Source: Picochlorum sp. 'celeri' (taxonomy: Eukaryota > Chlorophyta > Trebouxiophyceae). From it: 64,000 nucleotides of DNA. Positions 42,980 to 44,913 of the stretch are shown in pieces; the stretch's first letter is position 1, and the number at the start of each line of letters is the position of its first letter. The translations under genes were made by a program, and so were the position numbers. The notes under the pieces are model-generated. The model saw only the letters and a list, made by a program, of their open reading frames with translations, searched no databases and was not told where the DNA came from. The DNA lies in the NCBI GenBank assembly GCA_010909725.1, contig JAACMV010000027.1:868001-932000 (forward strand). The letters are read 5' to 3'.

Positions 42980-43672
42980 TTAGTGACCTGGGAGAGATGT
43001 TTCCCTTAGTCTTTCCAAACTCCATAGCGTCGAATTCAATCTTGTTTCGACCAGTTCCACAGACTCTGAGCATCTCAGAGAGGAATCCGAATACAGCACA
43101 TAGGTGCTGTGAATATGTATTCGCGTTTTGGGCATCACAAAGATGCCTTCAGTCACAGTCTCGACCTGTTGGAGAGACTCCAATGTCTCAATACCCTTGG
43201 TGACTTGACCAAAAATTGTATATTGCATGTTCAAGTGTGGCGCCGGACCAAGAAGAATACTGAATGATGATCCTCCACTGTTTGGATCATCATGCCTTGC
43301 CAAGGACAATATGCCTACTCTGTCATGCTTGACATCCTCGTGTACTTCCAAAGGAACAGTCTTGGATGCCCATTTCTGCTGTAGCTCGTCCATGGGTGCT
43401 TGTCGACCATTCTGGACATCAGCAATCTGCGCAACAAAACCCTTGTCGACCCTGAAGAAATGATTTGTGTTGTAGCATCCCAACTCAAACAGTGCAAGAA
43501 TGAGCTCAACAGTGCGTGGGGCAATCGTAGGATAAAATGCGAGGTGAATATCACCAAAATCAGTTTGCAACACTGCTCTCTCTCTGCTCAGTTCTCTCTG
43601 TTGCCGAGCATCGACTCCATCGTGGCTGGCCAAAACCATGGCAGCAATGATGAGTAAAAATATTCTCCGCAT
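42980..43672 (-). CDS. Secretory-pathway cyclophilin-type peptidyl-prolyl isomerase
   Basis: 230 residues with a cleavable signal peptide (MRRIFLLIIAAMVLASHDGV). The cyclophilin fold follows: LQTDFGDIHLAFYPTIAPRT, NTNHFFRVDKGFVAQI, SLARHDDPNSGGSSFSILLG, YTIFGQVTKGIETLESLQ. The active-site segment keeps the Phe-Phe-Arg of the catalytic strand. A 45-residue C-terminal tail follows. It most resembles plant CYP23, an ER/secreted member with low or unknown activity. No intron. Confidence 0.88.
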   Translation of the reverse strand: MRRIFLLIIAAMVLASHDGVDARQQRELSRERAVLQTDFGDIHLAFYPTIAPRTVELILALFELGCYNTNHFFRVDKGFVAQIADVQNGRQAPMDELQQKWASKTVPLEVHEDVKHDRVGILSLARHDDPNSGGSSFSILLGPAPHLNMQYTIFGQVTKGIETLESLQQVETVTEGIFVMPKTRIHIHSTYVLYSDSSLRCSESVELVETRLNSTLWSLERLRETSLPGH

Positions 43673-43822
43673 TTATATCGTTTTTTTTTTAATAAGAAGA
43701 AGAGAATATGGGGCATCTCAGTCTCGACAGGTTTTTTTGAGGAATTTTGGGCGCCCCCCTCGGGGTCTCCACCCGAAGTATTCGACAGGAAATTCCCGAT
43801 TGGGCAATCGTGATGCTGAAGA

Positions 43823-43925
43823 CACTGGTCCTCTTTGAGGGCGCAGGTTCGAACCCTGTCATGACCATGCCGAGATACTCTCTCTGAGGTCATGTGGTGG
43901 AGTGGTCTAACACGCCAGTTTTAAG
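43823..43925 (+). tRNA. Permuted tRNA-Leu(UAA): 3' half precedes 5' half
   Basis: The two halves of one type II tRNA lie in reversed order. Upstream 3' half, 43823-43867: C38, anticodon-stem strand ACTGG, long variable arm (CCTC-TTT-GAGG), T arm GCAGG-TTCGAAC-CCTGT, acceptor strand CATGACC, discriminator A. Then 20 bases, then the 5' half, 43888-43925: acceptor GGTCATG, D arm GTG-GAGTGGTCTAA-CAC, stem CCAGT, loop TTTAAG with anticodon TAA (43922-43924). All stems match: seven acceptor pairs, five anticodon pairs, three D pairs and five T pairs (one G-U). Joined, the halves give an 83-base tRNA-Leu without CCA. Permuted tRNA genes of this order are known in the red alga Cyanidioschyzon and in prasinophytes. 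The B box therefore precedes the A box. Confidence 0.92.
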
Positions 43926-43953
43926 TGCTGATCGATACGAATGAATTCTGTTA

Positions 43954-43964
43954 TTTTTTTTTTT
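43954..43964 (+). terminator. Poly-T run, probable RNA polymerase III terminator
   Basis: Eleven consecutive T residues about 30 bases behind the 5' half of the permuted tRNA, in the position expected for termination of a transcript that covers leader, 3' half, spacer, 5' half and trailer. The same stretch, read on the other strand, follows the TIP41 stop codon. Confidence 0.7.
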
Positions 43965-43977
43965 ACAAGTTATTTTC

Positions 43978-44913
43978 TCATCCGACGAAGAGCTTCTCCA
44001 TCGCGTAGTGTTGCACTCCTGACGGGGCAAGAGCTTGGAGCATCTGTGCTGCTTCATCTGCATTGCAATAGCCCACCCCCGAGGTAGCCTCCTGCCATCG
44101 CACCTCGCGCAAGACAGTCTCACCATGTCCAAAATTGCAGAAATATCGCGCGTCACGTATTCGAACAAGCTGCCCATCTATCCTCAGGAAGAATCTCAGC
44201 AAGACAAACCAGCACTCTGGCATTACTCGTATTTTGACACTCGCCTCTGACACCCCCATGTCGTCCAACTCGGACACGTACAGCGGGAATGAATCAAATA
44301 CTAGAATTGGAGCACGTCGATCCATCAACAAAGCCTTGTCCATCTGCTCCTGCGTCTCTCGAGGGACATCCCACCCCTCACAGCTCCCCACATAGGAGGT
44401 GGTGTATGTCCAATCATACACCACTCGTGTCGCCTCTGCTGCATCCTTCTTCCTCTCCTGCTGCCACTTTTCGGATATATTCAACTGTATAGGCTCGTTA
44501 CCGTCAGAAATCCATTGCTGCAACGCATCTGCTGCGCTGAACCTGATGGTGTTCCCACTGGGCCTGTGCTCCAGCACCAGGACATTCTCCGAATAGACCT
44601 GCTCGGGCAGATTCCGAATGGTAGGCCCCTGATCGCCTTCTCCTTGCCCTTGAGAAGAATACAGCGCCTCCTCCAGGCGTTCTCTCTCTTCCTGGGATGC
44701 TATACGAGACCCATGAGTCAAGCGAATGGACCAGTCGCGAATGTGAACAGCAGTCGTCGCGGCTGATGATGAAGGCTGTTCAAAGAGGACAGAGCCCCCG
44801 CATCTTTTCAGCTCTGCACCACACGAGTGAGCTCAAGAGAGGATCTGGGAAACCCACACGAATACATAGAACCCACCTGGCACGTCCACAATGGTCTGTT
44901 TCGGATATTCCAT
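43978..44913 (-). CDS. TIP41: TIP41-like PP2A regulator
   Basis: Binds and inhibits PP2A-type phosphatase catalytic subunits, linking TOR signalling to their activity. Exons 44913-44877 (only 37 bases, MEYPKQTIVDVP) and 44813-43978 give 290 residues. The domain runs IRDWSIRLTHGSRIAS, PEQVYSENVLVLEHRPSGNT, YDWTYTTSYVG and, near the end, MPECWFVLLRFFLRIDG. The long frame has no ATG and hits a stop codon upstream, which forces the splice; the 63-base intron has a GTGGGT donor. A TGTAA is directly behind the stop codon. The neighbouring phosphatase gene is divergent. Confidence 0.9.

Follow-up and report, generated by a model that had tools for sequence, protein, structure and literature searches.

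Positions 43823..43925 of the window (the whole 64,000-nucleotide stretch of Picochlorum sp. 'celeri' DNA that was analysed) are best read as a circularly permuted tRNA-Leu(UAA) gene of the 37/38 type, a reading that an earlier note on this DNA had proposed and that the evidence supports at the DNA level. The permuted gene is real in the DNA and very probably functional. We have little doubt that it would prove a working, single-locus nuclear gene for this tRNA, in a genome with at least 16 permuted tRNA loci in all. Given this layout, the permuted tRNAs probably need to be circularised and recut before the alga can use them. Permuted tRNA genes are a known kind; of greater interest is that a single genome contains at least 16 permuted loci.

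Structure of the Permuted tRNA-Leu(UAA) Gene

The gene sits in the gap between a cyclophilin gene and a gene for a TIP41-like protein, and its 3′ half precedes its 5′ half on one strand, which is the arrangement of a type II permuted gene (Table 1). When the halves are joined in swapped order they give an 83-base cloverleaf with 7/7 acceptor and 5/5 anticodon-stem pairs, and it is in swapped order only that the cloverleaf is complete. The coordinates, the half order and the length of the spacer set out in the earlier note were right to the base when the sequence was read, and the long variable arm, the discriminator A and the anticodon TAA are as it described them. ARAGORN, run on a doubled segment, bore out the pairs that it had counted in the acceptor and anticodon stems and returned a tRNA-Leu(taa) of 83 bases, with the flanks taken as an intron at 37/38. 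The T and D arms, which it had also called complete, are both present, but the D stem is limited to three pairs, with G-A at 13-22, and the T stem includes one G-U pair. After joining of 37 to 38, the signature letters of a eukaryotic tRNA are in place (U8, R15:Y48, G18G19, U33 and TTC at 54-56), read here as T8, G15 with C48, GG, T33 and TTC. The CCA end is not encoded, and A73 is followed by TGC.

Table 1. Features at and around the permuted tRNA-Leu(UAA) gene (positions in the window), followed by the permuted tRNA loci of one haplotype
Feature	Position	Strand	Details
Cyclophilin-type peptidyl-prolyl isomerase gene (neighbour)	42980..43672	-	Pfam PF00160, E 9.3e-32
GGAAATTC, candidate external promoter element	43788..43795	+	Upstream element common to ordinary and permuted tRNA genes
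Leader strand of the 4-pair central helix, bulge-helix motif	43817..43820	+	TGAA; pairs with 32-35 (43920-43923)
3′ half of tRNA-Leu(UAA), positions 38-73	43823..43867	+	Sequence reading, ARAGORN on doubled segment
3′-half anticodon-stem strand	43824-43828	+	ACTGG, positions 39-43; position 38 is C
Variable arm	43829-43842	+	14 bases, CCTC-TTT-GAGG; stem CCTC/GAGG
T arm	43843-43859	+	GCAGG-TTCGAAC-CCTGT; B box 43846-43856
3′ acceptor strand	43860-43866	+	CATGACC; discriminator A (A73) at 43867
Intervening spacer	43868..43887	+	20 bases; one allelic difference, at 43882
5′ half of tRNA-Leu(UAA), positions 1-37	43888..43925	+	Sequence reading, ARAGORN on doubled segment
5′ acceptor strand	43888-43894	+	GGTCATG; then U8 (T8) at 43895
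A box	from 43895	+	Inside 5′ half; D arm with 3 pairs and GG
5′-half anticodon-stem strand	43915-43919	+	CCAGT; loop TTTAAG; anticodon TAA at 43922-43924
Run of 11 T, likely RNA polymerase III terminator	43954..43964	+	Starts 29 bases past position 37
TIP41-like protein gene (neighbour)	43978..44721	-	Pfam PF04176, E 1.9e-47
Permuted Leu loci			Leu(UAA), the present gene; Leu(AAG), L056; Leu(CAG), L123
Permuted Ser loci			Ser(AGA), L067; Ser(GCU), L131
Permuted Gly locus			Gly(GCC), L076
Permuted Ala loci			Ala(UGC), L081; Ala(CGC), L122; Ala(AGC), L168
Permuted Arg loci			Arg(UCU), L092; Arg(UCG) twice, L191 and L192
Permuted Cys locus			Cys(GCA), L121
Permuted Met locus			Met(CAU), L174, taken as elongator
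Permuted Thr loci			Thr(CGU), L179; Thr(AGU), L180

The analysed genome comprises 27,412,692 bases in 30 contigs, most of them in pairs, and the available text of Becker et al. (2020; PMC7225527) describes a phased Picochlorum celeri assembly of 27.43 Mbp, divided into two sets with 15 scaffolds each. Both haplotypes carry the permuted tRNA-Leu(UAA) gene, the second allele lying on contig C15. Over 981 aligned bases the alleles differ twice, in the spacer and at 43952 in the trailer, and at none of the tRNA letters; with only two differing sites, therefore, the identity of the alleles fits constraint but does not prove it. The window also encodes a P450, a carotene epsilon hydroxylase by its matches, whose nearest named relatives are those of Micractinium, Chlorella and Trebouxia at 70-75% identity and which matches metagenome proteins at up to 96% identity.

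Detection of the Gene and Search for an Ordinary Counterpart

The rotated-model check suggested in the earlier note was run with a covariance model (R1) that excludes the candidate; it is based on 14 ordinary tRNAs from this genome and was rotated at 37/38 in silico. On the 64-kb window R1 gives a single match, at the candidate (35.6 bits, E 6.4e-10), and on 34 control loci with ordinary tRNAs it scores at most 25.8 bits. When ARAGORN is run on doubled 160-base segments, it reports three matches in the 64 kb, all overlapping this place and named Pro, Leu(taa) and Glu depending on the cut point of the segment, and ten dinucleotide shuffles of the window yield one such match in total. No ordinary tRNA was found by ARAGORN or Rfam on either strand of the window, and one exact pattern for relatives of the gene had 0 matches in viral contigs. 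The fold energy is not unusual (z -0.47 and -0.83) and is not counted as support because these z-scores are unremarkable. Both minimum-energy folds contain the acceptor helix and neither has the anticodon or D stem in the expected register; the fold of 149 bases is without the T arm.

The Rfam tRNA search of the genome returned 34 matches, none of which could be read as Leu(UAA). A 181-base DNA query matches the two alleles of the permuted gene only, and a pattern for the Leu(UAA) 5′ half that is indifferent to half order finds only the candidate and its allele in 27.4 Mb, while a short-D-loop variant of this pattern has 0 matches in the genome. The gene for Leu(CAA) is ordinary and has an intron (L029/L030), with an anticodon that was read by eye; ARAGORN calls these loci Arg and Gly. 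Among the ordinary genes met later, the Rfam search had missed Arg(ACG) at L120, Ser(UGA) at L055 and those of L170 and L171, and since it overlooks some genes the lack of an ordinary Leu(UAA) gene is likely rather than proven. The complete ordinary gene elsewhere that the earlier note had named, together with a missing joined transcript, as speaking against its own reading was sought among the Rfam candidates, by one DNA search and with two patterns, a non-exhaustive set in which none was found. UUA codons are in use, at 6 of the 2277 codons of six open reading frames in the window.

Other Permuted tRNA Loci of the Genome

One haplotype holds at least 16 permuted tRNA loci with 15 anticodons and spacers of 11-128 bases, together with about 22 ordinary loci that were found, both counts being lower bounds from a search that covered some B-box forms and the 37/38 type only. 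The places of the B-box patterns that were used are the first 100 of 333, all 88, all 99 and the first places of 166, with flanks for part of them. Flanks were scanned with R1 and a purpose-made finder at 80 loci, three sets of 20, part of another set and 15 small loci. The count of 16 leaves out allelic rows and L135, an Ala(AGC) locus of the other haplotype; L135 and the anticodons of several ordinary genes with introns were read by eye, and ARAGORN names differ or are missing for L025, L029, L030, L033, L055, L120 and L198.

The permuted loci score between 27.4 bits (Ser(AGA)) and 61.6 bits with R1, and because the lowest score lies near the 25.8 bits of ordinary loci, the stems and the junction were read locus by locus. 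For Met(CAU) and Thr(CGU) the variable region was set to 5 bases by hand, since the finder scored long ones no worse, and R1, whose own variable region is short, gives them 61.6 and 49.4 bits. The permuted Met(CAU) is taken as the elongator because L014 resembles the initiator Met in its signature. Over 15 loci, with one of the two near-identical Arg(UCG) loci also left out, acceptor pairs number 105/105 and anticodon-stem pairs 75/75, with two to five pair types per column, and halves exchanged between genes give 61.3 and 42.5, respectively; these figures are to be read in the light of the use of acceptor and anticodon-stem pairing in selecting the loci.

Alleles were fetched for 12 of the 15 other permuted loci, and all of them are permuted too. 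Besides three Ala pairs, ten other allele pairs were compared, and in nine of these no tRNA letter differs. The three Ala allele pairs (L081/L184, L122/L185, and L168 in L201 with L135 in L202) are strongly divergent in leader, spacer, 5′ half and trailer, and the Ala(AGC) pair is located in a segment that is inverted between the haplotypes.

Several further places were considered as permuted loci and set aside. L084, L126, L090 and L058 had weak model scores and were rejected on reading. At L120 (Arg(ACG); allele L198) and at L055 (Ser(UGA)) we read an ordinary, intron-containing gene. L126 (C14:4638) and L084 (C4:1105093) are near-identical and lie near contig ends, each with a B-box-like GGTTCGAGCCC and a T-arm-like hairpin and no full tRNA. 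The GGTTCGAGCCC letters also occur near other contig ends among the B-box pattern places.

The permuted Arg genes have features of their own. The spacer of the Arg(UCG) loci on C8 (L191:203-330 and L192; alleles L189 and L190) measures 128 bases, or 130 in one allele, and that of L191 folds far better than its shuffles (z -4.69, 0/200), while neither L191 nor L192 has an Rfam match. At the permuted Arg(UCU) locus (L092:74-224, minus strand), the Rfam family YrlA (Y RNA-like) scores 33.1 bits where its gathering score is 69. YrlA is a bacterial RNA with a tRNA-like part, and the score at L092 may have arisen because both have the order T arm, acceptor, D arm.

Junction Motif and Splicing Machinery

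As we read the bulge-helix motif of a 37/38 junction, the leader bases -3 to -6 are the expected partners of bases 32-35. At the candidate all 4/4 central pairs of this helix form, one of them G-U, and the junction can take up an hBH motif. Over the 15 loci, 49 of 60 such pairs form, and the helix played no part in selecting the loci. When leaders are reassigned between genes the mean is 35.0 pairs (sd 2.99, maximum 47), and 0 of 20000 reassignments reach 49; six other registers that were tried give 20-29 of the 60 pairs. Two of the 15 loci fit the register poorly, namely Ser(GCU) with 1/4 and Cys(GCA) with 2/4 pairs.

Genes resembling Sen34 (C7/C24) and Sen2 (C10/C16, with further copies) are present in the genome. 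The Sen2-like segment is placed at C10:613187, C16:614070, C21:81237 and C25:30222, and at 1564 on each of C9, C12 and C26. The extra copies on C9, C12, C21, C25 and C26 have the same score, three of them at the same coordinate, and may be the outcome of either amplification or an assembly effect.

Transcription Signals

The upstream element GGAAATTC or near forms of it are also found upstream of L003, L007, L009, L011, L013, L014 and L017. Its core, AAATTC, lies 5-65 bases upstream of 9/17 permuted rows, among which L135 and both Arg(UCG) loci are included, and of 7/15 ordinary genes, these being the ones of about 22 with flanks from the Rfam search. About half of the tRNA genes examined are without the core, and its background is 235 of 12788 sixty-base stretches of the window. 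An upstream element common to permuted and ordinary genes could explain transcription despite the swapped A and B boxes, and from its placement we infer a candidate promoter role for the AAATTC-type element. A protein of the B-block TFIIIC kind is present in the genome.

Downstream, all 16 permuted loci have a run of four or more T that starts within 36 bases past position 37, and no such run is found in the spacer of the candidate or of the other permuted loci. The candidate is the sole permuted locus with TTTT inside its halves (43919-43922, in the anticodon arm of the 5′ half), and this stretch could stop RNA polymerase III early.

Proposed Processing and Alternative Explanations

A route to the mature tRNA can be proposed in which RNA polymerase III would make one linear precursor composed of leader, 3′ half, spacer, 5′ half and trailer. 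The Sen splicing endonuclease would then cut after position 37 and before position 38, and a ligase would circularise the RNA by joining the ends at 37 and 38. RNase P and tRNase Z would excise the spacer at the acceptor end, and CCA would be added afterwards. A circular intermediate is described in algae in the available text of a 2014 review (Soma, 2014; PMC3978253).

The same half order would also be left behind by a tandem duplication, if two adjacent ordinary tRNA-Leu genes had decayed and left, as a functionless remnant, only the 3′ half of the upstream copy followed by the 5′ half of the downstream copy, and such an event is a conceivable origin of permuted genes. We judge a remnant to be highly improbable. 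The outer halves that it calls for are untraceable, given that the scores for a 5′ half in the 400 bases upstream and a 3′ half in the 400 bases downstream are reached by 483/500 and 327/500 shuffles, respectively. The tRNA letters are intact and the same in both haplotypes, and two 5′-half patterns found no other gene for the anticodon UAA. At least 15 other loci, furthermore, have the same anatomy, with a junction helix above chance.

A permuted gene is also to be preferred to a split tRNA of the Nanoarchaeum kind, in which each half has its own transcript and the two are joined in trans, a case less probable still than the remnant even though the junction motif would suit trans-splicing equally. 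The halves are not at separate loci: they lie 20 bases apart on one strand, with a spacer that is free of T runs of four or more. The same order of halves recurs at 16 loci with spacers of 11-128 bases, all without such a run, and for the known algal permuted genes processing starts from a single linear precursor, as the review text available describes (Soma, 2014; PMC3978253). The possibility that tRNA-like pieces came together by chance draws on the unremarkable fold z-scores and on the one doubled-segment match in ten shuffled windows, but it is refuted at the DNA level by the E of 6.4e-10 from an independent model, the identity between haplotypes and the signature letters, and we give it negligible weight.

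Comparison With Known Permuted tRNA Genes

The 2014 review counts 34 permuted tRNA genes in seven organisms, with at most 11 per genome and a longest spacer of 74 bases, and the part of it available calls the significance and development of these genes unclear (Soma, 2014; PMC3978253). The Arg(UCG) spacer reported here, at 128 bases, exceeds the longest of its table. One close likeness is to the type II (37/38) genes of the prasinophytes Ostreococcus and Micromonas, which have the same half order, junction and hBH motif. O. lucimarinus and M. pusilla also have a permuted tRNA-Leu(UAA), with spacers of 25 and 20 bp compared with 20 here. However, the prasinophytes belong to another class than the trebouxiophyte studied here, and have 3-6 permuted genes per species in the review table, compared with at least 16 loci in this genome (Soma, 2014; PMC3978253).

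According to the same source, C. merolae resembles the present alga in having many permuted genes in a small genome, Leu(UAA) among them, with an upstream element and a downstream T run. Its junctions fall at 20/21, 37/38, 50/51 or 59/60, whereas those found here are at 37/38, the sole type sought, and the portion of the review available states that homologues of TFC1 and TFC3 were not identified in it, whereas a B-block TFIIIC protein is present here. The genes of Thermofilum pendens likewise have swapped halves and a BHB-type motif at the junction, but they are archaeal, have the junction at 59/60 and encode CCA (Soma, 2014; PMC3978253).

The taxonomic hint that the earlier note drew from the permutation was useful but incomplete, as trebouxiophyte green algae were missing from the groups that it listed. 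Permuted tRNA genes were reported in 2025 for the trebouxiophyte Auxenochlorella, and the available text on strain UTEX 250-A, also a trebouxiophyte with a streamlined diploid genome, describes a tRNAscan-SE set that was incomplete and permuted genes that were then detected (PMC12633428 / PMC12636532). For Picochlorum, no report of a permuted tRNA was found in the open-access papers searched, one of which has the term permuted tRNA in its list of references alone. The SENEW3 genome paper used tRNAscan-SE and the word permuted is absent from its main text, and tRNA goes unmentioned in the main text of the P. celeri paper.

Implications for tRNA Supply in Picochlorum

The permuted set covers Leu, Ser, Ala, Arg, Thr, Gly, Cys and Met. 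Fourteen of its 15 anticodons are absent from the ordinary loci found, the one shared being CAU, which is that of the apparent initiator Met. Permutation may even be a main way in which this alga stores its tRNA genes (at least 16 of the about 38 loci found), a tentative proposition to which we give slightly less than an even chance. If it were true, a large share of the tRNA supply would pass through circular RNA. Because the A and B boxes are out of their usual order, transcription would lean on the upstream AAATTC element, and certain spacers, such as the strongly folded 128 bases of Arg(UCG), could once excised be RNA products themselves. The findings suggest that standard tRNA annotation misses a large part of the tRNA genes in this genus. 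With its fast growth and at least 16 permuted loci, this green alga would offer a living system in which to study the splicing route, the promoter logic and the origin of permuted tRNA genes.
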